Below are positions 3,231 to 58,213 of a stretch of 64,000 nucleotides of DNA, in pieces (position 1 is the stretch's first letter; the number at the start of each line of letters is the position of its first letter). Both the position numbers and the translations under genes were made by a program. The notes under the pieces were generated by a model. That model worked only from the letters and a program-made list of their open reading frames with translations. It searched no databases and was not told where the DNA came from. The stretch is from Paralichthys olivaceus (Eukaryota > Chordata > Actinopteri > Pleuronectiformes > Paralichthyidae), in contig NC_091110.1 of NCBI RefSeq assembly GCF_024713975.1, forward strand, positions 3,173,001 through 3,237,000, given 5' to 3'.

Positions 3231-3235
3231 TTTAC

Positions 3236-6198: not shown

Positions 6199-6232
<34 letters not shown>

Positions 6233-7037
6233 ACACATACACACACACACACAAATTCACAACTTCATTTATTTTATTTGATCTCAAATATTTACTAATT
6301 AATCAAACATGTGATCAATAGATTTAAATATTTTAGTAAAATCTCAAATGTTTTGTGAAGATTCTTAAATTAATTAAATAATTAAATAATTAAATACAGT
6401 GACAGACATTTTCACTACTTTCTGATATTTGCTTCAGTTTAAACAAGTGATTGATTCATTAACAAAATACAGAATCAACAACAACCAGAATGATTAGTTT
6501 GAAAATTCAATTAAATATATCAAATCAACAGTAGAGCAACAAATTCATGTCACTGTGCTGACCACAGTGTGTCCACAAAATAAGAAACACACCAGAGAAT
6601 CACACGTTAGATTAGATTTACCCAAACACAGTGTCAAAGCCAGAAGACATTTATATACTGTAGTGCTGAAGAAGACATTTATTACTGGATCAGCAGAAAA
6701 TAATTATCAACAACTGTGAATTTGGTGTTAGCAGTAAACTGTGTGGATGGATGTGTTATGGGTCAGAGAAGAACTTTAAATTCAGGTGCAGATCAGAGGC
6801 TGATCCAGGAATATTTTCTGTCTCTTTTGGTTTTTCAACATTTTCCTTGATTTCCCAGAGTAACTCATGGTTCTTGTTAAAAAATAAGAGATGTTCAGTG
6901 ACTAATATTTATGAGTTTGTGCAATTTGGTCATAAAGATGTCTCTAGTGAATTTAAATGTGTTTTCATGAGGTGACTGTTGGGCCTTGGTGGAGGTTTGT
7001 GCTGGACTGAGTGATGTTCTAGTTTGATGCTACTAAA

Positions 7038-7090
<53 letters not shown>

Positions 7091-10000
7091 TGAAGGTGTG
7101 ATAATAACAGCTCAGATCTCTGTCTCTCTCTCAGGTATCCACATTATGCAGTGGATGTACGGCTGTGAATGGGACGATGAGACTGGAGAAGTTAAAGGTT
7201 ATGATCAACATGGTTATGATGGAGAAGACTTCATATCATTTGACCAGCAGACAGAGACGTATATCGCTCCAACACCACAGGCTGTTATCACCAAACTGAA
7301 GTGGGAAAATGATAAAGCTGAACTTGCATATTATAACAACTTCTACACCCAGGAGTGTCCTTCCTGGCTGAAGAAGTTCCTGGAGCATGGGAAGAGCTCT
7401 CTGCAGAGAACAGGTGAAATCATAACCTCCATGAACATGATGTTCCTCTTTCATTTCTTACTCTGTGGCATCACAGTGAACGTGAGCAAATACACAGACA
7501 CCTGCTGTGACTCAGTTTGTTCACTTTCTATCATCATCGCTCTGATTCCCTCTCCTTCCCTCCTTTCTTCTCTCTCTCTATCTCTCTCTCTCTCTCTCAA
7601 TGCGCTTTTTATGCCTCTGCTCCGGCGACACCTAGTGGCCGCTGGCATTATGTTCCCGGGTCGTCTGTCCGTCCCATCACTGTGAACACGATATCTCCAG
7701 AATGCCTTTAGGGAACTTCTTCAGATTTAGTACAAACATTCACTTTGAGTCAAAGATGAACGGATTAGAGTTTGGTGGTCAAAGGTCAAAGGTCAAGGTC
7801 ACGGTGGCCTCACAAAGTATGTTTATGTTTTTCTTGAACGTGATGTCATCAGATCAGCTTCAGATTTGGTACAAACTTTCACTTGGACTCAGAGATCGAT
7901 TAGTTATTGATTAGATTTTGGAGCCTGGAGGTCAAAGGTCAAGGTCACAGTGACCTCATGTTACTGTGAATGTGTTAGACTGAGACACAGCGGGAGTCTC
8001 CTCCCTCCTCACCCTCCGACTGACCTGCGCTCACTTTGCACTTTAACAAAAAATACCAACATGAACCAGAAGTTATCAGGACCTGTTCAGTACATGAGGT
8101 TTACTTTGTGTTTGTATAAAGAAAATAATTATCGTGATATAAAACCGTCACCTTTCAATAAATACTGTGATATTACTCTGATGTCATATCGTCCACCCCA
8201 GTGTCTTTGCATCACTTCAGCCTCTGTCTCGTTCACATCTCACAGTTCTTCACTTGTCTCGTATATTAACAGACATGACTAATGCTAAATCAATGGAATC
8301 AAACATGAATGGTATTATTAGTATACAATACATTAGAATAACCCATAAACTGTCTTTCTTCTTTGTCCACAGAGCTTCCCTGGATGTCTCTCCTCCAGAA
8401 GTCTCCCTCCTCTCCAGTCAGCTGCCACGCTACTGGTTTCTACCCCGACATAGCCATGTTGTTCTGGAGGAAAGACGGAGAGGAGCTTCATGAGGACGTG
8501 TACGTCGGAGAGGTCCTCCCCAACCATGACGGGACCTTCCAGATGAGCACTGACCTGCAGGTTTCATCAATCCCACCTGAAGACTGGAGGAGGTACGACT
8601 GTGTGTTCCAGATCTCGGGTGTGAAGGAGGACATCGTCAAAAGATTGGACAAAGACTCAGTGGAGTCCAACAGAGGTGAGACTTGAATCAGTGATGACGG
8701 TGGGAAACACACAATTCATTTCCAATAACAGTCCTGCAGGTCATGTATGCTGACGTGTAGCAGGAGACGTTTTCTCTCTGTTGGTTTTGGGTCATTTTCT
8801 TTCATCACTTTTTATCAATGAATTTAGATCAGTGTTAGAAACAACAGCCGGACAAAGAAACAGGTTGATTGTCTGTGTGTGTTTGTTGTGTCTATTGTAC
8901 AGGATTGTGGTTCAGGGAGATTATTGTCGTCTAACCTGCTTCATCTGTTCAGGTTGTGATGCTTCGTTTTTTTATTCCACTCAACAGAGAAGCCCACTGA
9001 CGTGACCACCATCATCATCATCGCTGCAGTGGTCGGTGTCGTCCTCGCTGTCATTGGATTCATCGTGTACAGGAAGAGAAATGGTGAGAGACCAACACAG
9101 AAGCTTTGTCCAATATTTTGCTGGTGTTTTTATTTCAGACTTTTAATGAATGCTTCGTCCGGATCAGTCCTCATGAAACAAACTTCAGTTCCTCACACAC
9201 AACATCTGTTTCAAGAGCTGCAGGGTTCACACAAAGTTTTCTAACTTCACTCTGCACCATAGATTGTTAATAAAAAGCTCTGCACACAACGTCCAGCACA
9301 CAAATAAATAAAAGTAACAATATATTGTGGATCGTTTGAGGAGGATCGCCACTAGAAAAAACAAAGACAAAATTCTGGTTGTTTTTTTAACTGTAATAAC
9401 TGAAATTATTTGTATTTTCTTTTTATTTCAGTCAAATGTCTCCTGTGTCGTAAGTAAAACTTCTATTTCTACTCTGTTTTCTTTTAATATTAGTATAAAT
9501 CACCACTAGAAAAAACAAAGGCAAAATTCTGGTTGTTTTTTTTTACTGTAATAACTGAAATTATTTGTATTTTCTTTTTATTTCAGTCAAATGTCTTCCA
9601 TCTCGTAAGTAAAACTTCTATTTCTACTCTGTTTTCTTTTTATACTAATATGCTTTATTAGGACGTCACGTCACGTTGACACAGCAGCTGAAAGTACTAA
9701 TGTCCAGTTTTATAAAACACCCTCAACTCCTATTTGGTCCACTTTTTATTGGTCCACACCGGCACCAGTCAGGGAGGCGTTATGTTTCCAGGCTGTTCAT
9801 CTGTTCGTGCCCATGTTGTTAACATGATATCTCAAGAATGCTTTGAGGGAATTTCTTCAAATTTGCCACAAATGTTCACTTAGGCCTTGTCCACACTACT
9901 GCCAATATTTATTTCAATGGATTTGAGGCTCCCCACAGGAACCTGACCCAGTGCAGGACTCTAGAAAACCCTCCGGAGATTAAATAGGCTTCATTTTGTG

Positions 10001-12005: not shown

Positions 12006-12106
12006 TTTCACTTTCGTTAATAACCTCAGTTCAGTTGGTGAGTTTCACCCGGATTTAAGTGACTATAGAGGCTGATCCTGAATTCTCATTGGCTCAGATG
12101 ATGTCA
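12006..12106 (+). promoter_or_regulatory. MHC class I promoter elements, gene 3
   Basis: The same module as in gene 2: ISRE as TTTCACTTTC at 12,006-12,015, inverted CCAAT (ATTGG) at 12,088-12,092 and TGATGTCA at 12,099-12,106. All three core motifs are unchanged from gene 2, so interferon response is likely retained. Confidence 0.65.
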
Positions 12107-12229
12107 CCTCCTCTCTGTGTGTCCTCTTATCTCGTTGTTTTTTGTCTCTGCAGCCACAGTCCGTCTCTCTGTGGACAAAAGACCTCATCTACCTTCAGTC
12201 CAGCCAAGAGAAATATACCACCGCTCACA

Positions 12230-14964
12230 ATGCACACTTTACTTTTCCTGCTTCTACTGGCAGGAACACACAGCGCGACGGCAAGTGAGTTCTAGTTTCT
12301 ACTTGATTATTTCACACTTGGTTCTTCATCACGTGTCTCATGTTTCATGTTGGTTTATAAAAAGTTGTGAAGAAATAACAGGTTCAGTCTGTTGATGTGA
12401 ATCAAGACTGTTATTGATGTAAATACATATATTTGAACATCTTTTAAATGATTGATGATTCATTTCCCATCGCCTCAAACACCTCAATTATTCATCTAAA
12501 CTGGGTCAGCTGACAAATAAGGCGACGACTCAGTTTTGGTTTTTATTGGAGTCAGTTGGTGGCGCTGTTTCCACAGATACAGAAAGTGCTGAGGACAAAC
12601 AGCTTCCTGCTTTGTTGGTTCAATATTCCACATTATTTAGGCTGAGAAAGACCGTGAGTAACATGACTGACATGCAAGAGGTCCTGGCTGCAGACCTCCA
12701 CTGTCAGGAGAGTAACGACCGTTAAAGCAGACTTTATTGGGGATACTCTCCAACCTCCCAGACATAGTGACAAAATAACAGGCTATGAAAATATCGATCG
12801 AGGCTATGAAAAATAATCAAGAAAAATAAACAGGAAGAAAACCTTCTAATAATCAAAACCCACTCCGAGGATTGAAAAACCCAGAAAATAAAGAGAAATG
12901 AACCAACAGAAAATCACTCCACTAGGAGGAAAACAAAAGGCTAAGAACTCAAAACTCAAAACACTCCCAAAGGAGGAGAACCAAACTTTTTTTCCTAAAA
13001 ATCGGAGGCTCTACTACTCTCTATGAAACATTTAACTAGAACAAAAAATTCAATTGTCTATTTGTAGCCTATTTGTAGTCTACTATAAAGCTGAGGATCT
13101 TGAAAAGAGGTCAAATAGTTGATCAATGAAAACATTGGAGGGCAGGAATAACACTGGTCAGTGCACACATCTTCTCTTAAGCTATTACTCATATTCACAA
13201 GCCATAAGATGTCATAAACCCAGCTCATATGCTGTGTTCAAAATGTTCATGATTTCACAATTTGAATTTTGTATATGATAATGAGGACTTTCAGAATAAA
13301 TGTCTCATGTAGTAACTGGAAATTGAAGTAGTTTTCACTTCACATGAAATAATCTGCAGTAGAAAATATTATTTTCTAATATTAAATATTTGAGTCGTTA
13401 GATTGAATCCATGTAGAATTCAAAGTAAAGAGTGTCTGGACTCTGGAGCAGACGTTTTATCTATCAATGTATTTCTGTGTTTGTTTACCACACAACAGAG
13501 ATGCTGAAGTTGTCTTGAATGTACTTCATGTCTTCTTCACTCTGAGTGCAGTGATTTATTAAACATTCTGAAACTAAAGTCAGGACTTTAACTTTTTCTT
13601 GCAGGGACTCACTCTCTGAAGAATTTCTACACTGGGTCCTCTCAAGTCCCAAACTTTCCAGAGTTTGTGTCTGTTAGTTTGGTTGATGAAGTTCAGATGA
13701 TTCACTATGACAGCAACACAAAGAAAGTAGAACCCAAACAGGACTGGATGTTGAAGGCAACAGATTCACAGTACTGGGAGAGGGAGACTCGGAACATTTG
13801 GCATTACCAGCAGTGGCTCAAAGACAACATTGAAAACTTAAAGGAACGCTTCAACCAGAGTGAAGGTTAGTTTACGTTTCACTCTCTAATTATAACAACA
13901 CACACACACACACAAATTCACAACTTCATTTATTTGATTTGATCTCAAATATTTACTAATTAATCAAACATGTGATCAATAGATTTACATTTTTTTGTAA
14001 AAATCTCAAATGTTTTGTGAAGATTCTTAAATTAATTAAATAATTAAATACAGTGACAGACATTTTCACTACTTTCTGATATTTGCTTCAGTTTAAACAA
14101 GTGATTGATTCATTAACAAAATACAGAATCAACAACAACCAGAATGATTAGTTTGAAAATTCAATTAAATATATCAAATCAACAGCAGAGCAACAGATTC
14201 ATGTCACTGTGCTGACCACAGTGTGTCCACAAAATAAGAAACACACCAGAGAATCACACGTTAGATTAGATTTACCCAAACACAGTGTCAAAGCCAGAAG
14301 ACATTTATATACTGTAGTGCTGAAGAAGACATTTATTACTGGATCAGCAGAAAATAATTATCAACAACTGTGAATTTGGTGTTAGCAGTAAACTGTGTGG
14401 ATGGATGTGTTATGAGTCAGAAAAGAACTTTAAATTCAGGTGCAGATCAGAGGCTGATCCAGGAATATTTTCTATCTCTTTTGGTTTTTCAACATTTTCC
14501 TTGATTTCCCAGAGTAACTCATGGTTCTTGTTAAAAAATAAGAGATGTTCAGTGACTAATATTTATGAGTTTGTGCAATTTGGTCATAAAAATGTGTCTC
14601 TAGTGAATTTAAATGTGTTTTCATGAGGTGACTGTTGGGCCTTGGTGGAGGTTTGTGCTGGACTGAGTGATGTTCTAGTTTGATGCTACTAAAACCTGGG
14701 GGTGGGGTTTATTATTGACAGACTGACTCACGATTGGTCGAGCGTGTGTACCAGTGAGACCTTGGTACCTTTGCTCCATAACCGATCGCTCTGGATGACA
14801 GCGTTCATATCTGTTGTATTTTGGCTTCGTTCCTGGACAGTGGGAGGAAGTGGAGACGTGTCGTCCATCTTTATAAACAGTCATGGTCTGTTCCTGCCGC
14901 TCACATGATGTCACCACCTTCAACAGAGTAGATGAACTGTGTGTGTGTGTGTGCTTGTGTGTCT

Positions 14965-15022
<58 letters not shown>

Positions 15023-17034
15023 TGAGGGTGTGATAATAACAGCTCAGATCTCTGTCTCTCTCTCAGGTGTCCACATTTACCAGTGGATGCACGGCTGTGA
15101 ATGGGACGATGAGACTGGAGAAGTTAAAGGTTATAATCAGGGTGGTTATGATGGAGAAGACTTCATATCATTGGACCTGCAGACAGAGACGTGGAACGCT
15201 CATAGACCACAGGCGGGTATCCTCAAACTGCAGTTGGATAATGATAAAGCTATACTTGCATATCTTAAGAACTACTACCTCCAGTTGTGTCCTTCCTGGC
15301 TGAAGAAGTTCCTGGAGCATGGGAAGAGCTCTCTGCAGAGAACAGGTGAAATCATGACCTCCATGAACATGATGTTCCTCTTTCATTTCTTACTCTGTGG
15401 CATCGCAGTGAACGTGAGCAAATACACAGACACCTGCTGTGAATTATTGTTAGACCACCCCTGAATTGAGACACAGCGGGAGTCTCCTCCCACCTCACCC
15501 TCCGACTGACCTGCGCTCACTTTGCACTTTAACAAAAAATACCAACATTAACCAGAAGTTATCAGGACCTGTTCAGTACATGAGGTTTACTTTGTGTTTG
15601 TATAAAGAAAATAAATATCGTGATATAAAACCGTCACCTTTCAATAAATACTGTGATATTACTCTGATGTCTTATCGTCCACCCCAGTGTCTTTGCATCA
15701 CTTCAGCCTCTGTCTCGTTCACATCTCATAGTTCTTCACTTGTCTCGTATATTAACAGACATGACTAATGCTAAATCAATGGAATCAAACATGAATGGTA
15801 TTATTAGTATACAATACATTAGAATAACCCATAAACTGTCTTTCTTCTTTCTCCACAGAGCTTCCCTTGATGTCTCTCCTCCAGAAGTCTCCCTCCTCTC
15901 CAGTCAGCTGCCACGCTACAGGTTTCTACCCCGACATAGCCATGTTGTTCTGGAGGAAAGACGGAGAGGAGCTTCATGAGGACGTGTACGTCGGAGAGGT
16001 CCTCCCCAACCATGACGGGACCTTCCAGATGAGCACTGACCTGCAGGTTTCATCAATCCTACCTGAAGACTGGAGGAGGTACGACTGTGTGTTCCAGATC
16101 TCTGGTGTGAAGGAGGACATCGTCAAAAGATTGGACAAAGACTCAGTGGAGTCCAACAGAGGTGAGACTTGAATCAGTGATGACGGTGGGAAACACACAT
16201 TTCATTTCCAATAACAGTCCTGCAGGTCATGTATGCTGACGTGTAGCAGGAGACGTTTTCTCTCTGTTGGTTTTGGGTCATTTTCTTTTATCACTTTTTA
16301 TCAATAAATTTAGATCAGTGTTAGAAACAACAGCCGGACAAAGAAACAGGTTGATTGTCTGTGTGTGTTTGTTGTGTCTATTGTACAGGATTGTGGTTCA
16401 GGGAGATTATTGTCATCTAACCTGCTTCCTCTGTTCAGGTTGTGATGCTTTGTTTTTTTATTCCACTCAACAGAGAAGCCGACTGACGTGACCACCATCA
16501 TCATCATCGCTGCAGTGGTCGGTGTCGTCCTCGCTGTCATTGGATTCATCGTGTACAGGAAGAGGATTGGTGAGAGACCAACACAGAAGACAAAATTCTG
16601 GTTGTTTTTTTAACTTTAATAACTGAAATTATTTGTATTTTCTTTTTATTTCAGTCAAATGTCTCCTGTGTCATAAGTAAAACTTCTATTTCTACTCTGT
16701 TTTCTTTTTATACTAATATGCTTTTTTAGGACGTCACGTCACGTTGACACAGCAGCTGAAAGTACTAACATGTCCAGTTTTATAAAACACCCTCAACTCC
16801 TATTTGGTCTTTTTATTGGTCCACACCGGCGCCAGTCAGGGAGGCGTTTGTGCTGAAGAGAGTTTTCAGGACTGTTCCCTGCAGTGTTGGTTGTTTGTAA
16901 TAAAAGTGTCTGTTCAGAGGAGGATGGTCTCATGATGTGTTTCTGACCTCACAGCTGAAAATGATCCAAACGTCTTAAACACTCTGAACCCAGATGGACC
17001 AGTTTCTAATCCTCCAAGTGAGACGTCCTCCTGA
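12230..17034 (+). CDS. MHC class I heavy chain, gene 3 (non-classical-like)
   Basis: Exons: leader 12,230-12,284, alpha1 13,605-13,865, alpha2 15,067-15,345, alpha3 15,859-16,161, membrane 16,474-16,569, small tail exon from 16,655, last coding exon 16,955-17,034. Frames are open through the membrane exon and all Ig and alpha2 cysteines are present, as is NQS at the end of alpha1. Residues that anchor peptide ends are changed: Tyr7 is Asn (SLKNFYT), and the Thr143/Lys146/Trp147 motif reads ILKLQL (Leu, Gln, Leu). Tyr59 (QYW) and Tyr159 (KNYYLQLC) remain. The small tail exon has lost its donor (GT to AT, ATAAGT). Reading through adds KCLLCHK and stops (about 339 aa), while skipping it joins in frame to the last exon (about 357 aa). 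The second copy of the tail exon found in genes 1 and 2 is absent. It is probably expressed but does not bind ordinary peptides; this is inference. Confidence 0.88.
12675..13415. other. Intron 1 segment specific to MHC gene 3
   Basis: Homology with gene 2 intron 1 stops near 12,672 and resumes near 13,415. The stretch between is unrelated to the mariner-containing intron of gene 2. I see no open frame, terminal repeats or recognised element, and its origin is unknown. Confidence 0.45.
14695..14935. repeat. Interspersed repeat fragment in intron 2 of MHC gene 3
   Basis: The sequence contains CGTCCATCTTTATAAACAGT, a variant of the 'ccatctttatatacagtctatgg' end found in a very common teleost repeat. 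It is absent from the same intron in gene 2, so it inserted after the copies split or was deleted from gene 2. Confidence 0.5.
14939..15021. repeat. (GT)n microsatellite before the alpha2 exon of MHC gene 3
   Basis: GT tract of about 80 bp with a few interruptions near its 5' end, at the same place as the tract in gene 2. Confidence 0.9.
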
Positions 17035-17750: not shown

Positions 17751-18146
17751 GTCCCTGATACTCTCTTGGATTTCTGTCTCTTTGTGATTCAATGTGTAGA
17801 AAAGTTGAACACATCTGTGAAAGTTCAAATGTCCATTATTGTCCCAGAGAATAAACAAATGTGGATTTGACCTGTAAGAGCAGCAAGGAAAAACCTATTT
17901 GGTCAAACCTGTGACTCTTTACAGGAAAAAGACAAAGACATTTTACACATGATGACAAAATGGTTGTGGTGGTTTTATTGTGAAGTAATTTGGTCTTTTC
18001 TCACGTTTGATTTGCTGCTGACTTTAACAACCTCATTATTTTAGGAGGATCATTGTTGTTTTGTTGTCAAGTGTAAAACCACTTTGTGATTGAGTGTTTT
18101 CATTATCAGACATGAGCAGATCCACTGATCTCTCGCTCACACTTAC

Positions 18147-18310
18147 TTTCACTTCCGTTAATTACCTCAGTTTGTTCACCTGGATTTAAGTGACGTAGAG
18201 GCTGTACCTGAATTCTCATTGGCTCAGGTGATGTCACCTCCTCTCTGTGTGTCCTCTAGTCTCGTTGTTTTTTGTCTCAGCAGCCGCTCACAATGCACAC
18301 TTTACTTTTT
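18147..18310 (+). promoter_or_regulatory. Fourth MHC class I promoter, joined to the kinase array
   Basis: The MHC promoter module recurs: an ISRE with one change (TTTCACTTCC, 18,147-18,156), inverted CCAAT (18,218-18,222) and TGATGTCA (18,229-18,236). It continues into the 5' untranslated sequence and the start of the leader exon (ATG at 18,293). Relative to gene 2, about 300 bp before the ISRE and about 70 bp of 5' untranslated sequence are missing. Homology to the MHC gene ends at about 18,309 inside the leader exon, where kinase intron 8 sequence takes over. Confidence 0.75.
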
Positions 18311-18318
18311 TGTCGTAG

Positions 18319-18906
18319 ATGTATGAATTGAATAAGTTGTTGATTGATTCTTCACTGACTAATCTGCTGATTTGTGTTTTTTTCAGTGTAATGCATTGTC
18401 TGGACAGCATGGGGGTCTTAGACTTGGACGACTACGATGATGAGGAAGACTTTTGCTCAGATGTTGTGGCTGAGGAAGACCCCTGGGTGGAGGAGGCTTC
18501 AGTTGTACCACAGTCAGAGGACACAGGCTCAGCTCCTCCTCACTCCAGTGTCAGGGTTGAAGAGCTGGTTCCCCCATGTGATGAGACTGCAGCTGCTGGC
18601 TCATCAGATGTTGTGGCTGAGGAAGACCCCTGGGTGGAGGAGGCTTCAGTTGTACCACAGTCAGAGGACACAGGCTCAGCTCCTCCTCACTCCAGTGTCA
18701 GGGTTGAAGAGCTGGACCTCCCATGTGATGACACTGCAGCTGCTGGCTCAGATGCAGAGAAATCAGCTGAGAGCCAACAATTACCTGATGCAGCTCAAGA
18801 GACACAGCTCTGTGAAGACACTCGTCCTGCCAGAGTCAGCAGACTGAAGAGGATGAGGAAGTTTTTGGGCAGAATTGTAAAGAGAGTGAAGAGATTGTTC
18901 AAATGA
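18319..18906 (+). pseudogene. Orphan last exon of the tandem kinase behind an MHC promoter (possible chimeric gene)
   Basis: Only intron 8 (partial) and exon 9 (18,387-18,906) of the kinase unit remain; the kinase domain is absent. Exon 9 is intact, with both 49-residue acidic repeats and the basic end (RKFLGRIVKRVKRLFK). The intron remnant is open in the same frame, so an unspliced transcript from the MHC promoter could give a 195-aa protein starting at 18,319. Its first 23 residues would come from intron and include the hydrophobic run LTNLLICVFFS. The old MHC start codon at 18,293 would make a 12-codon upstream frame that overlaps this ATG. The acceptor at 18,386 is kept, so splicing from an upstream donor is also possible. 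It is either a fragment left by unequal crossing-over or an expressed fusion; expression data would decide. Confidence 0.7.
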
Positions 18907-20668
18907 ACGTGGATGAAGGACAAGTGGAAATGTATTTTTATTTTTCTAAATTGGAAAAAAGTCAATAAAAAGTGTTAATAAATAAATAAAAGTGTTAAGT
19001 AACATTTTCTTGTTTTGTTGTTTAACCAGTTACTTTAAAACTTAAAATACACATGTAATAATATTGGAAAAAAATAAGCAAAATTAAAAATCCTTATACA
19101 GTTACCATCGGATGTGTTTATTTCTAAACTGCCCCACATCATCAAGATGACCCTGAAACTTTGTGCATTGCCATCTAGTGGCTGTTACATTCGGCCACAA
19201 AAACATGTTCAGAGTTTTATTGCAAAATAAATATAATAGGAAAATAAGATGCAGTTGCTTCAGTTTTTCACTGGGCTGAGGCTGAAGTCAAAGATGGTGT
19301 CTGCTGTAACCCGCTTTCTCCTCCCAACCATGCACCATGCCCACCAACTTATAGAGGTGCCCTCCTCACCTTTTCACAAATGATAATGATAATTATTATT
19401 ATTTCAATTAGAGAGATGACTATGACTCTGACAGCAAATCCTAATGTAGACTTCACAAATGGTTCACTTGTATGTATAGTGGTCAAGTTTAAGAATTGAC
19501 AGAGTAGTACATTAAACATCAATTAACTGTGTATGACTACTTTAAGTCACTACCTAACCAGGTACATTCAATTCATTTATACTGAGTGAGTGTTGATAAA
19601 CATTAGCAAACTGTAAAATATGAAATATTATAGGTAGCTGTGCTTGCTAGCTACCAGCAACAATACCTATTTAACACAACACTACCACAAACAATACAAA
19701 CATTTTAATAACAACAAGCTTTCCTGAGAAGAAGAATACTAATAAGAATACTAACAGGCTTCCTCTGTCACATATGATTATTCTCCAAGTGCTCTGCATG
19801 CAGCATGACAACAGGGAACAGTGTCTTTCGTATTCATATTGTCCAACTAGGGCTGGGTATCGCCACTGATTTCCCACATCAGATATATTCACAAGGTCTC
19901 GATTCAGTGAAGTTTCAGATTGGATTCAATATCAATTTATATCAGGATGTTTCATTGTACAATACCAATTTAGCTTGGATATGAAAGAAGAACTAAAGTT
20001 GTAAATGGTGCAAGGAAACCTCTAACTTGGTGCAAAATTAAAATAATATGGTAGGTCTGTCACAATAGCAAATGTTGTTGTATATTATATTGACCCAGAA
20101 AATATTGTGATAAAAGATATCATTGTCATCACTTTGGAACCATTTCATACCACTGATATCATGAAAATATTATAGCACAATAATAATAACCCTTACAAAG
20201 TTGCAGCCTCAGCTTCATGATCAGTATTGATCAGTATTTGATTATTATGCAGTTGAATGACAGAGATGAGCTGATATTTCTGATTATATAAATTATATTA
20301 TGTACCTTTTTTTTAAAATAAATTCTTGGCATATTTGTGCTCATATTATCTGTTTTCTTAGGCTTGAATGGAAACCTGTTCCTACAGTGGTTTATTGTCG
20401 ACTTTGTTTCATGTTCATGGTTGTGATGACACACAAAAAGATAAATCTGAAGTAAAATGAATTAAATGTGTTTATTTATTTATTTATACCATATGTATTA
20501 ATTTGATTTGACTTTACACAATGTTGCTGTGAAAAATAATTCAGGTTGCATGTATACGTAGGTCATTTTGTGATGATATGTGATATGATACACAGACAAC
20601 AACATTATTGGTTTAAGTTTCAGTGAGAGTCCATCACTGTCCATCAGAGGATCAGTGGAAAGTAACAA
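18907..20668. other. Kinase-array spacer with interspersed repeat
   Basis: Polyadenylation signals (AATAAA, from about 18,964) directly follow the stop. The spacer contains a common fish repeat starting near 19,850 (GGGCTGGGTATCGCCACTGA) with AT-rich sequence after it. The same repeat recurs in every spacer (near 24,608, 29,344, 34,100, 38,729 and 43,327), so it was already in the ancestral unit. Otherwise I see no gene here. Confidence 0.6.
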
Positions 20669-20750
20669 TTTGATACATCAAAGGACTAGAGGCACAGGTT
20701 GCCTCTAGTCCAAAAGGGACAGGTTGCCTCTAGTCCTTTGATGTATCAAA
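20669..20750. repeat. 82-bp hairpin upstream of kinase copy 1
   Basis: Perfect 26-bp inverted repeats (20,669-20,694 and 20,725-20,750; arm starts TTTGATACATCAAAGG) flank a 30-bp loop. A further half-arm (TTGCCTCTAGTCC) in the loop could pair with the left arm instead. It ends 116 bp before the start codon. Equivalent hairpins lie at 25,426-25,507 (one arm mismatch), 30,162-30,243 and 44,144-44,225. Before copies 4 and 5 only the inner and right parts remain. Confidence 0.85.
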
Positions 20751-20866
20751 ACTGCACTTTGGGTATAGACTCCTTTACAACTGACTTTGAGAACGTCACT
20801 ACCTGCTGCAAACCACCGCTGGTGTAAGAAGAGAAACGTCAATTTCCACAGTACTCGAGATACGAA

Positions 20867-23661
20867 ATGGCAGAAAATCTAGTTTCACACAGCTGTTTGA
20901 CAGCAAATAAAGCTGGTATGTATATTTCAACACACAGTAACCGGGAATGATTAAGTACATTTACTCAAATGCACTACTATGAATGCTTTAACTATACGTA
21001 TCTAAGATTTCTTCTGCTTTATATCTCCAGGTAAATATGTCAAAGGAGCAGACTTTTGTTGAACAAAGTCAAAAAGTTGCATAATCCACAATGTGAAGAG
21101 ATTTGTTTAGTAGGAAAGAGATGAAGAAGCAGAATGTGTTGTTTAAAGTTCAGGGAACAACAGGGTTGATGATTTGTGTGTTCAGGGTTGATGAAGCTGG
21201 GTGAGGAAGGGGAATATGAAGCATTGAATGTTGGGCTAATGGCACCAGCTTTCACTCTGCCCCTGCTGACTCCATATTGTAACCTTCTTATGTTCTTCTT
21301 CTTGGTCACAGATGAACAGATGCAGTCAGGGGATTCTGAGGTGCCACAGAGCAACATACTGTGCAGTGGCACCAACAGCTACCTCATAACTGAAGTGTGC
21401 GGAGAGGGGGCCTTTGGCAAAGTTGTCAAGGCCGTAAACATGGCCACATCTCAAGAAGTGGCCCTCAAAATCCTCAAACGTGAGGATGCTGCTCCAAGAG
21501 AGGTATGTAATCTTGTTCATTTTGAGGTTTTTGTTTCACATTGTCTTACTCCTAACTTGTTTCTTAGAATAACTGTTGAGACCATGCTGTGTCATCTACA
21601 CCTCCTATATCCTGTTTCCTCTTTCCTCCACAGATGTGGATGCTTAAGGCAGTGAGCGCTCTTGACCCCACCAAAAGCAACGTGGTCGACTTCATTGAGC
21701 GGTTTCAGGACGGCGGACAGACCTGTCTGGTGTTTGAGCGGCTGGACATGAACCTGTACCAGCTGCTGCAACAACGACGTGGACATCCGTTGACTCTGAG
21801 TGAGATTCGGCCCATTGCTCACCAGGTAAACATGATGTGACTCCTTCATCAATCTATCATCGAGTGGTAACAAACCTGTATATCTTCTAGATCTGTAAAT
21901 AACATTTGACATTGTTTCTGCAGTTGCTGACAACTTTTGCCGCACTGGAGAGCATTGGGGTGATCCACACAGACCTCAAACCAGACAATGTGATGCTGGT
22001 GAACCACGAGAGGGAGCCCTTCAGGGTGAAACTCATCGATTTTGGTGTGTCCTTCATGAGGTCAGAGAACACACGTGGCATGAAAACCCAGCCCATAGGC
22101 TTCAGGTAGGATCGATGTGCCAACCTGTGCACTTGTGTGTTTGTGTTGTAAATGATCCAGCAGAAATTGTCTTCAGCAAACATGATGAATTTTACTTTGT
22201 ATTTATGTTGGTTCTTGTTTTCACTCACAGGTCACCTGAAGTCACCCTGGGCCTCCCTGTCTCAGAGGCCATTGATATGTGGGGTCTGGGCTGCATCCTC
22301 CTTTTCCTCTACCTCGCCAACCACCCGTTTTCAGTGGACTGCGAGTACCAGGGAGTAAGTATTCAAAGATTTAAATGCAACAACTGTTACATTCGGCCAC
22401 AAAAACATGTTCAGACCAACAGGAGACTTGATTTTGGCTGATGTGATTTTCGTTATTCTCTGTCCAGATGAAGGGAATTGTAGACATGCTGGGTCAGCCA
22501 GATGATGACTTCCTCAAGGCTGGAATATACAGCCACCAATTTTTCATGGAGGACAAGCACTGGTGCAACCCAGGGTGGTCGATAAAGGTATTTTAACCAG
22601 TTTTAGAATATTTTTCTCCCACTCAGACAATAGCTCTTTCCAATGTTGAACACATTATAAAGTAACTGACCAACATGTTTTCTTCCTGTAGACCCCAAGT
22701 GAGTTTGAAAGTGGGACTGGCATCCAGGTCAAGGAGTGGGCCGGTGACATTGGAAGCCTGAATGACCTGATCACAGTAAGTCATCCATTTCGTTACTAAA
22801 GAAAGAATAAGTACCAAGTTTCTCTGCTGTTGAGAGACATGAAGTAGTTCAACTGTCACCTACTTTGTTTTAAATCCAGCTTCACCCAGTGCTGAATGGA
22901 TCCATTGAGCTCCAGGACAGGAGAGCGTTCGTTAGTCTGCTCAAAGGCCTCCTTCAGATTGACCCCAGGAGGAGGCTAACGCCACAGAGGGGTCTCTCAC
23001 ACCCCTTTCTTACCATGGTCCACCTGATGGATAACATGGAAAGCCCATAGTAAGTAACTGGTTTCAGTCGTAGATGTATTAATTGAATGAGTTGTTGATT
23101 GATTGTTCACTGACTAATCTGCTGATTTGTGGTTGTTTTAGTGTAATGCATTGTCTGGACAGCATGGGGGTCTTAGACTTGGACGACTACGATGATGAGG
23201 AAGACTTTTGCTCAGATGTTGTGGCTGAGGAAGACCCCTGGGTGGAGGAGGCTTCAGTCGTCCCACAGTCAGAGGACACAGGCTCAGCTCCTCCTCACTC
23301 CAGTGTCAGGGTTGAAGAGCTGGACCCCCCATGTGATGAGACTGCAGCTACTGGCTCATCAGATGTTGTGGCTGAGGAAGACCCCTGGGTGGAGGAGGCT
23401 TCAGTTGTACCACACTCAGAGGACACAGGCTCAGCTCCTCCTCACTCCAGTGTCAGGGTTGAAGAGCTGGACCTCCCATGTGATGACACTGCAGCTGCTG
23501 GCTCAGATGCAGAGAAATCTACTGAGAGCCAACAATTACCTGATGCAGCTCAAGAGACACAGCTCTGTGAAGACACTCGTCCTGCCAGAGTCAGCAGACT
23601 GAAGAGGATGAGGAAGTTTTTTGGCAGAATTGTTAAGAGAGTGAAGAGATTGTTCAGATGA
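20867..23661 (+). CDS. HIPK/DYRK-like protein kinase, copy 1
   Basis: Nine exons: 20,867-20,915, 21,312-21,502, 21,634-21,825, 21,924-22,105, 22,231-22,354, 22,468-22,587, 22,692-22,775, 22,880-23,049 and 23,142-23,661, giving 543 aa in one open frame. The kinase domain (about residues 41-358) has GEGAFG (47-52), the ATP lysine in VALK (Lys69), IHTDLKPDN (catalytic Asp161), DFG (183-185), SPE (206-208) and EAIDMWGLGC. The pattern IHxDLKP plus LGLPxxEAIDMW is closest to homeodomain-interacting protein kinases. The HIPK activation-loop tyrosine is Lys here (KTQPIGFRSPE). The tail has an acidic start (LDLDDYDDEEDF), two 49-aa repeats (395-443 and 444-492) and a basic end (KFFGRIVKRVKRLFR). The start is chosen because exon 1 joins exon 2 in phase; an ATG at codon 20 is a possible alternative. 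Substrates are unknown. Confidence 0.88.
22383..22414. repeat. Short sequence shared by kinase intron 5 and the 3' spacer
   Basis: The segment TGTTACATTCGGCCACAAAA plus the following ACATGTTCAGA occurs in intron 5 and again in the 3' spacer of each unit (for example about 19,184-19,214 and 23,938-23,968). It is probably a leftover of an older repeat and may help misaligned pairing between copies. Confidence 0.6.
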
Positions 23662-25425
23662 ACGTGGATGAAGGACATGTGGAAATTTATTTTTATTTTT
23701 ATAAATTGAAAAAAAGTGAATAAAAAGTGTTAATAAATAAATAAAAGTGTTAACTAACATTTTCTTGTTTTGTTGTTTAACCAGTTACTTTAAAAACTTA
23801 AAATGCACATGTAATAATATTGAAAAGAAGAAGCAAAATTAAAAATCCTTATACAGTTACCATCAGATGTGTTTATTTCTAAACTGCCCCACATCATCAA
23901 GATGACCCTGAAACTTTGTGCATTGCCATCTAGTGGTTGTTACATTCGGCCACAAAAACATGTTCAGAGTTAGAATTTATTGCAAAATAAATGTAAAAGG
24001 AAAATAAGATGCAGTTGCTTCAGTTTTTCACCGGGCTGAGGCTGAAGTCAAAGACGGTATCTGCTATAACCCGCTTTCTCCTCCCAACCATGCACCATGC
24101 CCACCAACTTATAGAGGTGCCCTCCTCACCATTTCACAAACGATAATTATTATTATTTCAATTAGAGAGATGACTATGACTCTGACAGCAAATCCTAATG
24201 TAGACTTCACAAATGGTTCACTTGTGTGTATAGTGGTCAAGTTTAAGAATTGACAGAGTAGTACATTAAACATCAATTAACTGTGTATGACTACTTTAAG
24301 TGTAGCACTACCTAACCAGGTACATTCACTTTATTAATACTGAGTGAGCTTTGATAAACATTAGCAAACTGTCAGATGTGAAATATTATAGGTAGCTGTG
24401 CTTGCTAGCTACCAGCAACAATACCTATTTAACACAACACTACCACAAACAATGCAAACATTTTAATAACAACAAGCTTTCCTGAGAAGAAGAATACTAA
24501 TAAGAATACTAACAGGCTTCCCCTGTCACATATGATTAGTCTCAAAGTGCTCTGCATGCAGCATGACAACAGGGAACAGTGTCTTTCGTATTCATATTGT
24601 CCAACTAGGGCTGGGTATCGCCACTGATTTCCCACATCAGATATATTCACAAGGTCTCGATTCAGTGAAGTTTCAGATTGGATTCAATATCAATTTATTT
24701 CAGGATGTTTCTTGTACAATACCAATTTAGCTTGGATATGAAAGAAGAACTAAAGTTGTAAATAGTGCAAGGAAACCTCGAACTTGGTGCAAAATTAAAA
24801 TAATATGGTAGGTCTGTCACAATAGCAAATGTTGTTGTATATTATATTGACCCAGAAAATATTGTGATAAAAGATATCATTGTCATCACTTTGGAACCAT
24901 TTCATACCACTGATATCATGAAAATATTATAGCACAATAATAATAACCCTTACAAAGTTGCAGCCTCAGCTTCATGATCAGTCTTGATCAGTATTTGATT
25001 ATTATGCAGTTGAATGGCAGAGATGAGCTGATATTTCTGATTATATAAATTATATTATGTACCTTTTTTTTAAAACTAATTCTTGGCATATTTGTGCTCA
25101 TATTATCTGCTTTCTTTGGCTTGAATGGAAACCTGTTCCTACAGTGGGTTATTGTCGACTTTGTTTCACGTTCACGGTTGTGATGACACACAAAAAGATA
25201 AATCTGAAGTAAAATGAATTATTTGTGTTTATTTATTTATTTATACCATATGTATTAATTTGATTTCACTTTACACAATGTTGCTGTGAAAAATAATTCA
25301 GGTTGCATGTATACGTAGGTCATTTTGTGATTATATGTGATATGATACACAGACAACAACATTATTGGTGTAAGTTTCAGTGAGAGTCCATCACTGTCCA
25401 TCAGAGGATCAGTGGAAAGTGACAA
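23662..25425. other. Kinase-array spacer between copies 1 and 2
   Basis: It starts with the polyadenylation signal AATAAA at 23,719-23,724 and has the same layout as the first spacer, with the GGGCTGGGTATCG repeat. No gene seen. Confidence 0.6.
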
Positions 25426-25623
25426 TTTGATACATCAAAGGACAAGAGGCACAGGTTGCCTCTAGTCCAAAAGGGACAGGTTGCCTCTAGTCCTTTGATG
25501 TATCAAAACTGCACTTTGGGTATAGACTCCTTTACAACTGACTTTGAGAACATCACTACCTGCTGCAAACCACCGCTGGTGTAAGAAGAGAAACGTCAAT
25601 ATCCACAGTACTCACAATACGAA

Positions 25624-28393
25624 ATGGCAGAAAATCTAGTTTCACACAGCTGTTTGACAGCAAATAAAGCTGGTATGTATATTTCAATAAACAGTAACTG
25701 GGAATTATTGAGTACATTTACTCAAATACACTACTATGAATGCTTTAACTATACGTATCTAAGATTTCTTCTGCTTTATATCCATGTAAATATGTCAAAG
25801 GAGCAGACTTTTGTTGAACAAAGTCAAAAAGTTTCATAATCCACAATGTGAAGAAAAAGATTTGTTTAGTAGGAAAGAGATGAAGCAGAATGTGTTGTTT
25901 AAAGTTCAGGGAACAACAGGGTTGATGATTTGTGTGTTCAGGGTTGATGAAGCTGGGTGAGGAAGGGGAATATGAAGCATTGAATGTTGGGCTAATGGCA
26001 CCAGCTTTCACTCTGCCCCTGCTGACTCCATATTGTAACCTTCTTATGTTCTTCTTCTTGGTCACAGATGAACAGATGCAGTCAGGGGATTCTGAGGCGC
26101 CACAGAGCAACATACTGTGCAGTGGCACCAACAGCTACCTCATAACTGAAGTGTGCGGAGAGGGGGCCTTTGGCAAAGTTGTCAAGGCCGTAAACATGGC
26201 CACATCCCAAGAAGTGGCCATCAAAATCCTCAAACGTGAGGATGCTGCTCGAAGAGAGGTATGTAATCTTGTTCATTTTGAGGTTTTGTTTCACATTGTC
26301 TTACTCCTAACTTGTTTCTTAGAATAACTGTTGAGACCATGCTGTGTCATCTACACCTCCTATATCCTGTTTCCTCTTTCCTCTACAGATGTGGATGCTT
26401 AAGGCAGTGAGCGCTCTTGACCCCACCAAAAGCAACGTGGTCGACTTCATTGAGCGGTTTCAGGACGGCGGACAGACCTGTCTGGTGTTTGAGCGGCTGG
26501 ACATGAACCTGTACCAGCTGCTGCAACAACGACGTGGACATCCGCTGACTCTGAGTGAGATTCGGCCCATTGCTCACCAGGTAAACATGATGTGACTCCT
26601 TAATCAATCTATCATCGAGTGGTAACATACCTGTTTGTCTTCTAGATCTGTAAATAACATTTGACATTGTTTCTGCAGTTGCTGACAACTTTTGCCGCAC
26701 TGGAGAGCATTGGGGTGATCCACACAGACCTCAAACCAGACAATGTGATGCTGGTGAACCACGAGAGGGAGCCCTTCAGGGTGAAACTCATCGATTTTGG
26801 TGTGTCCTTCATGAGGTCAGAGAACACACGTGGCATGAAAACCCAGCCCATAGGCTTCAGGTAGGATCGATGTGCCAACCTCATTGTGTGCACTCGTGTT
26901 TGTGTTGTAAATGATCCAGCAGAAATTCTCTTCAGCATACATGATGAATTTGACTTTGTATTTATGTTGGTTCTTGTTTTCACTCACAGGTCACCTGAAG
27001 TCACCCTGGGCCTCCCTGTATCAGAGGCCATTGATATGTGGGGTCTGGGCTGCATCCTCCTTTTCCTCTACCTCGCCAACCACCCGTTTTCAGTGGACTG
27101 CGAGTACCAGGGAGTAAGTATTCAAAGATTTCAATGCAACAACTGTTACATTCGGCCACAAAAACATGTTCAGACCAACAGGAGACTTGATTTTGGCTGA
27201 TGTGATTTTCGTTATTCTCTGTCCAGATGAAGGGAATTGTAGACATGCTGGGTCAGCCAGATGATGACTTCCTCAAGGCTGGAATATACAGCCACCAATT
27301 TTTCATGGAGGACAAGCACTGGTGCAACCCAGGGTGGTCGATAAAGGTATTTTAACCAGTTTTAGAATATTTTTCTCCCACTCAGACAATAGCTCTTTCC
27401 AATGTTGAACACATTATAAAGTAACTGACCAACATGTTTTCTTCCTGTAGACCCCAAGTGAGTTTGAAAGTGGGACTGGCATCCAGGTCAAGGAGTGGGC
27501 CGGTGACATTGGAAGCCTGAATGACCTGATCACAGTAAGTCGTCCATTTCGTTACTAAAGAAAGAATTAGTACCAAGTTTCTCTGCTGTTGAGAGACATG
27601 AAGTAGTTCAACTGTCACCTACTTTGTTTTAAATCCAGCTTCACCCAGTGCTGAATGGATCCATTGAGCTCCAGGACAGGAGAGCATTCGTCAGTCTGCT
27701 CAAAGGCCTCCTTCAGATTGACCCCAGGAGGAGGCTAACGCCACAGAGGGGTCTCTCACACCCCTTTCTTACCATGGTCCACCTGATGGATAACATGGAA
27801 AGCCCATAGTAAGTAACTGGTTTCAGTCGTAGATGTATTAATTGAATGAGTTGTTGATTGATTGTTCACTGACTAATCTGCTGATTTGTGTTTTTTTCAG
27901 TGTAATGCATTGTCTGGACAGCATGGGGGTCTTAGACTTGGACGACTACGATGATGAGGAAGACTTTTGCTCAGATGTTGTGGCTGAGGAAGACCCCTGG
28001 GTGGAGGAGGCTTCAGTCGTCCCACAGTCAGAGGACACAGGCTCAGCTCCTCCTCACTCCAGTATCAGGGTTGAAGAGCTGGACCCCCCATGTGATGAAG
28101 ATGCAGCTGCTGGCTCATCAGATGTTGTGGCTGAGGAAGACCCCTGGGTGGAGGAGGCTTCAGTTGTACAACAGTCAGAGGACACAGGCTCAGCTCCTCC
28201 TCACTCCAGTGTCAGGGTTGAAGAGCTGGACCTCCCATGTGATGAGACTGCAGCTGAGAGCCAACAATTACCTGATGCAGCTCAAGAGACACAGCTCTGT
28301 GAATACACTCGTCCTGCCAGAGTCAGCAGACTGAAGAGGATGAGGAAGTTTTTTGGAAGAATTGTTAAGAAAGTGAAGAGATTGTTCAGATGA
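25624..28393 (+). CDS. HIPK/DYRK-like protein kinase, copy 2
   Basis: Exons: 25,624-25,672, 26,068-26,258, 26,389-26,580, 26,679-26,860, 26,990-27,113, 27,227-27,346, 27,451-27,534, 27,639-27,808 and 27,901-28,393, giving 534 aa. All kinase motifs listed for copy 1 are present. In the N-lobe it reads VAIK and DAARRE where copies 1, 3, 4 and 5 read VALK and DAAPRE, so copies 2 and 6 form a subtype. The tail lacks nine residues (a 27-bp deletion after the second acidic repeat). It ends KFFGRIVKKVKRLFR. The preceding hairpin has one mismatch. Confidence 0.88.
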
Positions 28394-30161
28394 ACGTGGA
28401 TGAAGGACAAGTGGAAATGTATTTTTATTTTTATAAATTGAAAAAAAGTAAATAAAAAGTGTTAATAAAAAAATAAAAGTGTTAAGTAACATTTTCTTGT
28501 TTCGTTGTTTAACCAGTAACTTTAAAAACTTAAAATGCACATGTAATAATATTGAAAAGAAGAAGCAAAATTAAAAATCCTTATACAGTTACCATCAGAT
28601 GTGTTTATTTCTAAACTGCCCCACATCATCAAGATGACCCTGAAACTTTGTGCAGCATTGCCATCTAGTGGTTGTTACATTCGGCCACAAAAACATGTTC
28701 AGAGTTAGAATTTATTGCAAAATAAATGTAATAGGAAAATAAGATGCAGTTGCTTCAGTTTTTCACCGGGCTGAGGCTGAAGTCAAAGACAGTATCTGCT
28801 GTAACCCGCTTTCTCCTCCCAACCATGCACCATGCCCACCAACTTATAGAGGTGCCCTCCTCACCATTTCACAAACGATAATTATTATTATTTCAATTAG
28901 AGAGATGACTATGACTCTGACAGCAAATCCTAATGTAGACTTCACAAATGGTTCACTTGTGTGTATAGTGGTCAAGTTTAAGAATTGACAGAGTAGTACA
29001 TTAAACATCAATTAACTGTGTATGACTACTTTAAGTGTAGCACTACCTAACCAGGTACATTCACTTTATTAATACTGAGTGAGCTTTGATAAACATTAGT
29101 AAACTGTCAGATGTGAAATATTATAGGTAGCTGTGCTTGCTAGCTACCAGCAACAATACCTATTTAACACAACACTACCACAAACAATACAAACATTTTA
29201 ATAACAACAAGCTTTCCTGAGAAGAAGAATACTAATAAGAATACTAACAGGCTTCCTCTGTCACATATGATTATTCTCCAAGTGCTCTGCATGCAGCATG
29301 ACAACAGGGAACAGTGTCTTTCGTATTCATATTGTCCAACTAGGGCTGGGTATCGCCACTGATTTCCCACATCAGATATATTCACAAGGTCTCGATTCAG
29401 TGAAATTTCAGATTGGATTCAATATCGATTTATTTCAGGATGTTTCATTGTACAATACCAATTTAGCTTGGATATGAAAGAAGAACTAAAGTTGTAAACG
29501 GTGCAAGGAAACCTCTAACTTGGTGCAAAATTAAAATAATATGATAGGTCTGTCACAATAGCAAATGTTGTTGTATATTGTATTGACCCAGAAAATATTG
29601 TGATAAAAGATATCATTGTCATCACTTTGGAACCATTTCATACCACTGATATCATGAAAATATTATAGCACAATAATAATAACCCTTACAAAGTTGCAGC
29701 CTCAGCTTCATGATCAGTATTGATCAGTATTTGATTATTATGCAGTTGAATGGCAGAGATGAGCTGATATTTCTGATTATATAAATTATATTATGTAACT
29801 TTTTTTTTAAATAAATTCTTGGCATATTTGTGCTCATATTATCTGTTTTCTTTGGCTTGAATGGAAACCTGTTCCTACAGTGGTTTATTGTCGACTTTGT
29901 TTCATGTTCATGGTTGTGATGACACACAAAAAGATAAATCTGAAGTAAAATGAATTAATTGTGTTTATTTATTTATTTATACCATATGTATTAATTTGAT
30001 TTCACTTTACACAATGTTGCTGTGAAAAATAATTCAGGTTGCATGTATACGTAGGTCATTTTGTGATTATATGTGATATGATACACAGACAACAACATTA
30101 TTGGTGTAAGTTTCAGTGAGAGTCCATCACTGTCCATCAGAGGATCAGTGGAAAGTAACAA
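28394..30161. other. Kinase-array spacer between copies 2 and 3
   Basis: AATAAA signals lie just after the stop, followed by the shared spacer repeat. No gene seen. Confidence 0.6.
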
Positions 30162-30356
30162 TTTGATACATCAAAGGACTAGAGGCACAGGTTGCCTCTA
30201 GTCCAAAAGGGACAGGTTGCCTCTAGTCCTTTGATGTATCAAAACTGCACTTTGGGTATAGACTCCTTTACAACTGACATGAGAACGTCACAACCTGCTG
30301 CAAACCACCAGATGTAAGAAGAGAAACATCAATATCCACAGTACTCACAATACGAA

Positions 30357-33149
30357 ATGACAGAAAATCTAGTTTCACACAGCTGTTTGACAGCAAATAA
30401 AGCAGGTATGTATATTTCAATAAACAGTAACTGGGAATTATTGAGTACATTTACTCAAATACACTACTATGAATGCTTTAACTATACGTATCTAAGATTT
30501 CTTCTGCTTTATATCCATGTAAATATGTCAAAGGAGCAGACTTTTGTTGAACAAAGTCAAAAAGTTTCATAATCCACAATGTGAAGAAAAAGATTTGTTT
30601 AGTAGGAAAGAGATGAAGCAGAATGTGTTGTTTAAAGTTCAGGGAACAACAGGGTTGATGATTTGTGTGTTCAGGGTTGATGAAGCTGGGTGAGGAAGGG
30701 GAATATGAAGCATTGAATGTTGGGCTAATGGCACCAGCTTTCACTCTGGCCTTGCTGACTCCATATTGTAACCTTCTTATGTTCTTCTTCTTGGTCACAG
30801 ATGAACAGATGCAGTCAGGGGATTCTGAGGTGCCACAGAGCAACATACTGTGCAGTGGCACCAACAGCTACCTCATAACTGAAGTGTGCGGAGAGGGGGC
30901 CTTTGGCAAAGTTGTCAAGGCCGTAAACATGGCCACATCTCAAGAAGTGGCCCTCAAAATCCTCAAACGTGAGGATGCTGCTCCAAGAGAGGTATGTAAT
31001 CTTGTTCATTTTGAGGTTTTGTTTTACATTGTCTTACTCCTAACTTGTTTCTTAGAATAACTGTTGAGACCATGCTGTGTCATCTACACCTCCTATATCC
31101 TGTTTCCTCTTTCCTCTACAGATGTGGATGCTTAAGGCAGTGAGCGCTCTTGACCCCACCAAAAGCAACGTGGTCGACTTCATTGAGCGGTTTCAGGACG
31201 GCGGACAGACCTGTCTGGTGTTTGAGCGGCTGGACATGAACCTGTACCAGCTGCTGCAACAACGACGTGGACATCCGCTGACTCTGAGTGAGATTCGGCC
31301 CATTGCTCACCAGGTAAAGATGATGTGACTCCTTCATCAATCTATCATCGAGTGGTAACATACCTGTTTGTCTTCTAGATCTGTAAATAACATTTGACAT
31401 TGTTTCTGCAGTTGCTGACAACTTTTGCCGCACTGGAGAGCATTGGGGTGATCCACACAGACCTCAAACCAGACAATGTGATGCTGGTGAACCACGAGAG
31501 GGAGCCCTTCAGGGTGAAACTCATCGATTTTGGTGTGTCCTTCATGAGGTCAGAGAACACGCGTGGCATGAAAACCCAGCCCATAGGCTTCAGGTAGGAT
31601 CGATGTGCCAACCTGTGCACTTGTGTGTTTGTGTTGTAAATGATCCAGCAGAAATTGTCTTCAGCAAACATGATGAATTTGACTTTGTATTTATGTTGGT
31701 TCTTGTTTTCACTCACAGGTCACCTGAAGTCACCCTGGGCCTCCCTGTCTCAGAGGCCATTGATATGTGGGGTCTGGGCTGCATCCTCCTTTTCCTTTAC
31801 CTCGCCAACCACCCATTCTCAGTGGACTGCGAGTACCAGGGAGTAAGTATTCAAAGATTTAAATGCAACGACTGTTACATTCGGCCACAAAAACATGTTC
31901 AGCCCAACAGGAGACTTGATTTTGGCTGATGTGATTTTCGTTATTCTCTGTCCAGATGAAGGGAATTGTAGACATGCTGGGTCAGCCAGATGATGACTTC
32001 CTCAAGGCTGGAATACACAGCCACCAATTCTTCATGGAGGACAAGCACTGGTGCAACCCAGGGTGGTCGATAAAGGTATTTTAACCAGTTTTAGAATATT
32101 TTTCTCCCACTCAGACAATAGCTCTTTCCAATGTTGAACACATTATAAAGTAACTGACCAACATGTTTTCTTCCTGTAGACCCCAAGTGAGTTTGAAAGT
32201 GGGACTGGCATCCAGGTCAAGGAGTGGGCCAGTGACATTGGAAGCCTGAATGACCTGATCACAGTATGTCATCCATTTCATTACTAAAGAAAGAATTAGT
32301 ACCAAGTTTCTCTGCTGTTGAGAGACATGAAGTAGTTAAACTGTCACCTACTTTGTTTTAAATCCAGCTTCACCCAGTGCTGAATGGATCCATTGAGCTC
32401 CAGGACAGGAGAGCGTTCGTTAGTCTGCTCAAAGGCCTCCTTCAGATTGACCCCAGGAGGAGGCTAACGCCACAGAGGGGTCTCTCCCACCCCTTTCTTA
32501 CCATGGTCCACCTGATGGATAACATGGAAAGCCCATAGTAAGTAACTGGTTTCAGTCGTAGATGTATTAAGGGAATGAGTTGTTGATTGATTCTTCACTG
32601 ACTAATCTGCTGATATGTGTTTTTTTCAGTGTAATGCATTGTCTGGACAGCATGGGGGTCTTAGACTTGGACGACTACGATGATGAGGAAGACTTTTGCT
32701 CAGATGTTGTGGCTGAGGAAGACCCCTGGGTGGAGGAGGCTTCAGTCGTCCCACAGTCAGAGGACACAGGCTCAGCTCCTCCTCACTCCAGTATCAGGGT
32801 TGAAGAGCTGGACCCCCCATGTGATGAGGATGCAGCTGCTGGCTCATCAGATGTTGTGGCTGAGGAAGACCCCTGGGTGGAGGAGGCTTCAGTTGTACAA
32901 CAGTCAGAGGACACAGGCTCAGATCTTCCTCACTCCAGTGTCAGGGTTGAAGAGCTGGACCTCCCATGTGATGACACTGCAGCTGCTGGCTCAGATGCAG
33001 AGAAATCAGCTGAGAGCCAACAATTACCTGATGCAGCTCAAGAGACACAGCTCTGTGAAGACACTCGTCCTGCCAGAGTCAGCAGACTGAAGAGGATGAG
33101 GAAGTTTTTTGGAAGAATTGTTAAGAAAGTGAAGAGATTGTTCAGATGA
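30357..33149 (+). CDS. HIPK/DYRK-like protein kinase, copy 3
   Basis: Exons: 30,357-30,405, 30,801-30,991, 31,122-31,313, 31,412-31,593, 31,719-31,842, 31,956-32,075, 32,180-32,263, 32,368-32,537 and 32,630-33,149, giving 543 aa. The second residue is Thr (MTENLV) where the other copies have Ala. Exon 7 uses a GTATGT donor. From exon 2 onward its protein equals copy 4. The tail is the long form, with SDLPHSS in the second acidic repeat. Kinase motifs are complete. Confidence 0.88.

Positions 33150-50063: not shown

Positions 50064-58213
<8,150 letters not shown>

Follow-up and report, generated by a model that had tools for sequence, protein, structure and literature searches.

In the assembly, a class I promoter is fused to the orphan last exon of a kinase gene. 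The join lies in the window, by which we mean the whole stretch of 64,000 nucleotides that was analysed (G000:C18:3173001-3237000, within a 588-Mb assembly of 25 contigs; coordinates are on the + strand). To judge from its class I sequences, the DNA probably comes from a bony fish. We interpret the locus as a breakpoint between a class I block and a HIPK-type kinase array, and the chimera found there as a non-functional relic, with a probability of about 0.72.

The join and its three scars

To locate the parents of the chimera, we compared positions 17000-19500 to the window by blast. Positions 18143-18285 are homologous to a class I promoter, with class I intergenic and promoter homology reaching 18285, and positions 18284-18309 are homologous to the class I leader. 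Kinase homology begins at 18312 and continues rightward. Read in order, the join consists of the leader ATG...ACTTTT, two odd T and then GTCGTAG of the kinase intron. These homology breaks at 18309 and 18312 confirm the sequence-only reading, in which a class I promoter and leader codons run into a kinase intron near 18,309. We keep the terms 'exon 9' and 'intron 8' from that reading as labels, not as a count of the kinase exons. The features at the join are the following.

18143..18149, + strand: scar 1, about 266 bp missing compared to the class I copy U3 (at 3232), directly upstream of the ISRE, estimated from blast offsets
18147..18156, + strand: ISRE-like TTTCACTTCC, the same variant as in five other aligned class I copies
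18191..18197, + strand: TGACGTA, which we take to be an X2/CRE-like motif
18218..18222, + strand: inverted CCAAT (ATTGG), kept in all 11 aligned copies
18229-18236, + strand: TGATGTCA, downstream of the inverted CCAAT
18284..18285, + strand: scar 2, where 67 bp between promoter core and leader ATG are deleted
18293..18331, + strand: class I leader ATG and 12-codon frame with its stop at 18329-18331, in a frame different from that of exon 9
18310..18311, + strand: scar 3, the fusion point, two bases that fit neither parent exactly
18312..18386, + strand: remnant of the last kinase intron, with the acceptor retained
18319..18906, + strand: open frame of 195 aa, which begins with 68 bases (22 codons and two bases) of former intron
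18387..18906, + strand: orphan last kinase exon (K0), with two acidic 49-aa repeats and a basic end
18964..18969, + strand: AATAAA polyadenylation signal

All three scars, that is the 266-bp gap, the 67-bp deletion and the fusion point, lie inside 170 bp. Scar 1 has a short TTA microhomology, as judged by eye. The 67-bp deletion is unique to the stub copy U5 (1 of 11 aligned promoters), and the lost bases are presumably class I 5' untranslated sequence; 17 leader bases survive, ending at 18,309. As in a chimera formed at a breakpoint, the class I 5' part and the kinase 3' part are joined in the same orientation, and the join sits at the edge of duplicated blocks with parent copies elsewhere. 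The last kinase exon after the join is intact, as had been proposed: its acceptor is kept and it is open through 18906.

In genome searches, the intron remnant and last exon are 92-98% identical to ten other genomic places, and the whole 760 bases (18147-18906) are matched only in the window itself. A query of 86 bases spanning the join gave at least one match, the sole one among the matches listed; the half-matches of the two parents were not among them, so the sensitivity of this query is limited. Neither the 760-base nor the 86-base query revealed a second site of the class I/kinase junction among the matches listed.

Class I and kinase arrays around the join

We mapped the surroundings of the join with short probes over 124 kb, where the intactness of the copies is known only from mapped pieces, the K1 translation and lists of open reading frames. 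The order is J1-J4, U1-U4, the stub U5, K0 and K1-K6, all on the + strand, where J and K are kinase copies and U are class I copies. Repeated class I units thus extend as far as the junction, and repeated kinase units start at 18312, which supports a breakpoint. The main units in the window are listed here.

3232..9100, + strand: class I copy U3, with promoter, leader, alpha-1, alpha-2, alpha-3 and membrane parts
12044..16586, + strand: class I copy U4, nearest to the junction among those with every mapped part
18312..47346, + strand: tandem HIPK-type kinase array, K0 and then K1-K6, with a unit of about 4.7 kb

The identity of both families is supported by protein comparisons. U3 matches Pfam MHC_I and C1-set, and its best PDB match is 5h5z, 'MHC class I antigen' (E 2.7e-51). 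Each of K1-K6 contains three kinase-part probes; translation and comparison refer to K1, whose spliced domain best matches HIPK2 (E 1e-71), followed by HIPK3. K0 resembles this family in that its exon is the last exon of the kinase copies. Unlike the HIPK family kinases, it has no kinase domain, since only the last exon is present; that the product would lack this domain had been predicted correctly.

A second kinase array with four copies (J1-J4, G000:C18:3142601-3160064) lies left of the class I block. J4 and K6 end in a common terminal unit (3159000-3160064 compared to 3219862-3220902 on C18; 95.3% identity over 1,065 positions), and their flanks beyond the general unit end align over 559 positions with 97.1% identity. 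Past this 559-bp flank the two copies differ in their neighbour, which is the class I block for the left one and other DNA for the right one. As the two flanking kinase arrays share a terminal unit and flank, a duplication breakpoint is favoured over selected promoter capture, and a location between two arrays whose flanks are duplicated accounts for the structure with no need to invoke function.

When K0 is divided into pieces of 400 bases, the first piece is nearest to J4 (98.75%) and J2 (98.0%), and the next three are nearest to J2 or J3. Of the last eight pieces, seven are most similar to a K copy, in some cases equally so to J2. This is compatible with a K0 end derived from the left kinase array. 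K0 is more divergent than the other units, which would fit reduced homogenisation of a copy at the edge.

Two observations are awkward for the breakpoint model. First, class I sequence must have joined the left flank only, because the right flank leads to other DNA. Second, there are two weak class I-like traces. One is a stretch of 143 bp at the left kinase edge (G000:C18:3141322-3141464), 94-96% identical to DNA of the class I block; the other, of about 100 bp at 3126269, is 72% identical to it. We take both for dispersed repeats.

We also considered two insertion scenarios and found neither supported. Had the kinase array landed within the fifth class I copy, the remaining exons of that copy should lie to the right of the array. 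Positions 1-18311 (the class I side) have no match in 18312-47300 or 47300-64000, so no alpha domains were seen after the stub. A search for class I exons had no hit in 47300-64000, in the 10 kb that follow or in the 18 kb preceding the first kinase array on its left. If the class I block had been inserted into one kinase gene, its left neighbour should be the front part of that kinase; it is instead a terminal unit with last exon and flank.

An assembly misjoin of the two arrays would also account for the junction, and we consider it very improbable. The kinase array is long and near-identical inside (99.15% over 7.4 kb in part), which makes it error-prone for assemblers; however, changes absent from the copies compared occur on either side of the join, there is no N in the 124 kb around the join, and the second kinase array also adjoins the class I block, on its other side.

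Further observations concern the kinase array and its neighbourhood. Window positions 30178-42242 contain two overlapping kinase-array stretches of about 7.4 kb, and their high identity suggests that kinase copy number there may be variable or misassembled. Right of the array, at 50240-54796 on the - strand, lies a guanido kinase gene in two pieces (Pfam PF00217), which we take to be of the creatine kinase type.

Searching the genome with the tail detected three related tails, one on C18 (5.007 Mb), one on C3 and one on C14. Kinase pieces adjoin all three, as judged by eye from blast pieces, and none of these sites (L015-L017) gave an independent free-tail gene; L024 gave no match. In the single kinase relatives L015 and L016 the kinase parts look damaged, while the tail retains long open stretches: by eye, the blast pieces show a frame change inside one kinase exon of L015 (around 4034-4830) and an in-frame stop in the kinase pieces of L016. 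Many more class I promoter copies are present at G000:C20:1.48-1.94 Mb and C24:3.2-3.3 Mb. The tail search returned no kinase tail on C20 or C24 among the matches listed.

Promoter, reading frames and divergence of the orphan exon

To judge the state of the promoter, we aligned 11 of the copies in the genome, five from the C18 block and six from C20 and C24. The ISRE, CCAAT and X2-like boxes that had been noticed in the sequence are present, and the core motifs are intact in the alignment; transcription from the stub is thus plausible. The ISRE had been described as carrying one change. The variant TTTCACTTCC is indeed there, but it is not peculiar to the stub: six of the 11 promoters carry it (U1, U5 and four on C20), five of them without the join, whereas four have TTTCACTTTC at this position and one lacks the region. 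We thus rule out a defective ISRE. For the X2-like box, the six C20/C24 copies have TGACGTA (four) or TGACGTC (two), and U1-U4 have neither form.

As in interferon-stimulated genes, an ISRE is found in the proximal promoter of the K0 tail; this assignment is supported by its homologous position and not by the motif alone. ISRE-like patterns are common, with 33 matches in 124 kb in a crude scan. In the 2 kb preceding the first mapped exon, the same scan gave two such matches for J1 and none for any of K1-K6. From the absence upstream of K1-K6, interferon input on the kinase tail, if any, is probably new.

The motifs can be compared to those of other fish. Many teleost class I promoters are reported to carry W/S, X2 and Y motifs, and the class I response to interferon-gamma in salmon cells was attributed to IRF1 and not to the enhanceosome (PMC7573153). 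U5 resembles the promoters in that account by the ISRE, X2-like and CCAAT motifs upstream of its leader, and differs from them by the loss of the 67 bp before the leader and by having no class I exon past the stub.

Four ATGs lie near the join, at 18293 (12 codons), 18319 (195), 18391 (171) and 18409 (165). The latter three share the exon 9 frame. The leader ATG at 18293, which has A at -3, does not, whereas a functional protein-coding gene would be expected to have it in frame. Since its 12-codon frame overlaps the ATG at 18319 and ends downstream of it, the 195-aa product would need leaky scanning, and the context at 18319 is weak (T at -3, T at +4).

The intron remnant had been noted as open in the exon 9 frame. 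This is correct for K0, but the start depends on a private change: the equivalents of the 18319 ATG read ATG TAT TAA in all ten other copies, whereas K0 reads TAT GAA, so that a single T-to-G at 18325 opens the frame. The remainder is not special to K0, as the ten other copies are already open across the 21 codons preceding the equivalent of the 18391 ATG. Furthermore, a second frame of 141 aa is likewise open through exon 9, which makes openness alone weak evidence.

The predicted 195-aa frame has the proposed hydrophobic N-terminus, but this starts in the former intron. Its most hydrophobic 19 residues (mean 2.0) are residues 16-34, which straddle the old intron end and the exon 9 start, and the part reading ICVFFS is the translated splice-acceptor tract. 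Residue counts agree with the proposed acidic repeats and basic end: positions 37-165 contain 37 acidic and 3 basic residues, and the last 24 residues have a net charge of +12. The helical moment of these 24 residues is reached by 3.4% of shuffles in one post hoc test. The frame has no Pfam match at E 0.01, in which it also differs from the HIPK family kinases.

The repeats correspond to a 147-bp (49-aa) tandem duplication within the last kinase exon (window 18457-18750) that is present in all 11 aligned kinase copies. J4, K2, K5 and K6 lack nine codons beyond this duplication.

We next consider divergence. Over gap-free columns of the 11 kinase copies, K0 has 3/493 private changes in exon 9, 2/75 in the intron and 5/256 in the flank; among the bases peculiar to K0 are 18325, 18334, 18504, 18507 and 18902. 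Comparing exon 9 to intron and flank combined (7/331) gives a Fisher p of 0.10, or of 0.035 when a pair of nearby changes that agree with the other internal repeat is merged, which is a post hoc choice. The edge-type copies also have fewer changes in the exon than in the flank (K6, 3 vs 20; J4, 0 vs 5), so the pattern of K0 is not peculiar. By codon, K0 has two private synonymous changes and one private nonsynonymous change. Mean NG86 values over all 11 copies are dN 0.017 and dS 0.044 for the ten pairs with K0, compared to dN 0.018 and dS 0.022 for the 45 other pairs. The lower dN/dS in K0 is the opposite of what a plain relic would show, and rests on very few changes. The ratio of K0-to-others to others-to-others distances is 1.46 in the intron, 1.35 in exon 9 and 1.91, 1.97 and 1.23 in the flank pieces; nine of the 11 copies were used here, with J4 and K6 dropped for their different flank type. 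Taken by sequence, exon 9 of K0 leans slightly to constraint or gene conversion, with counts too small to decide.

An open exon 9 with few private changes, a lower dN/dS and an intact promoter core count against a relic. They would fit a working chimeric gene, in which an interferon-responsive RNA yields a free kinase tail that competes with full-length kinases for partners. Translation would begin either at 18319 through leaky scanning, giving 195 aa, or at the exon 9 ATG at 18391 after the 12-codon frame, giving 171 aa. Such a gene would draw on an ISRE variant common to five other copies and on a splice acceptor, frame and AATAAA that are all kept, and K1-K6 have no ISRE-like match of their own in the 2 kb scanned, though J1 has two. 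However, the first ATG opens a different frame that overlaps the 18319 start, the context of this start is weak, 67 bp upstream of the leader are gone, and the selection comparisons involve too few changes to be decisive (3/493 in exon 9). We consider a working gene unlikely.

Even less likely is a locus that is transcribed and non-coding, giving an RNA that shares about 520 bases with kinase mRNAs and that would act, if at all, as RNA. The intact promoter core and the 92-98% identity of intron remnant and exon 9 to ten kinase copies would allow for it, but none of our results points to an RNA function. We give very little credence to a newborn interferon-responsive gene in which the class I promoter drives the free tail as a decoy for HIPK-type kinases or as a lookalike of a cationic-peptide pro-form; this idea invokes the layout of a hydrophobic start, an acidic middle and a cationic amphipathic end (+12 over 24 residues).

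Origin of the chimera

We thus favour a breakpoint relic. The join, its array context and three scars are all present in the assembly; the order and type of events are what we infer. A duplication or deletion would have fused a kinase copy, cut within its last intron, to the leader of a fifth class I copy. What remained would be the promoter with its leader stub on one side and the last kinase exon alone on the other. The break probably arose while the kinase block duplicated, and two small deletions occurred next to it. RNA may still be driven from the class I promoter through exon 9, downstream of which lies AATAAA, most likely without a selected protein product.

Chimeras of this kind have been described in Drosophila yakuba. 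There, tandem duplications that ignore gene boundaries are reported to have formed 76 chimeric genes, 24 of which showed raised expression over at least half of the exonic sequence of a 5' or 3' segment (PMC5460883). Compared to that account, the present locus similarly joins a 5' segment and a 3' segment that come from different genes, with parents nearby and a change in expression possible. It differs in that its 5' part is a promoter with 17 out-of-frame leader bases, and in that the tandem-duplication step is one that we infer. By its anatomy, the locus fits the breakpoint chimeras as described there. Judged from titles and the starts of abstracts in the open-licence literature, we found no paper on an arrangement of a class I promoter and a kinase exon.

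Should the locus be expressed, it would clearly illustrate how the rearrangement of arrays can hand an immune promoter to a kinase fragment while related parent copies remain in place. Otherwise, it is a well-marked breakpoint that sheds light on the way in which the class I and HIPK-type kinase arrays became interleaved.
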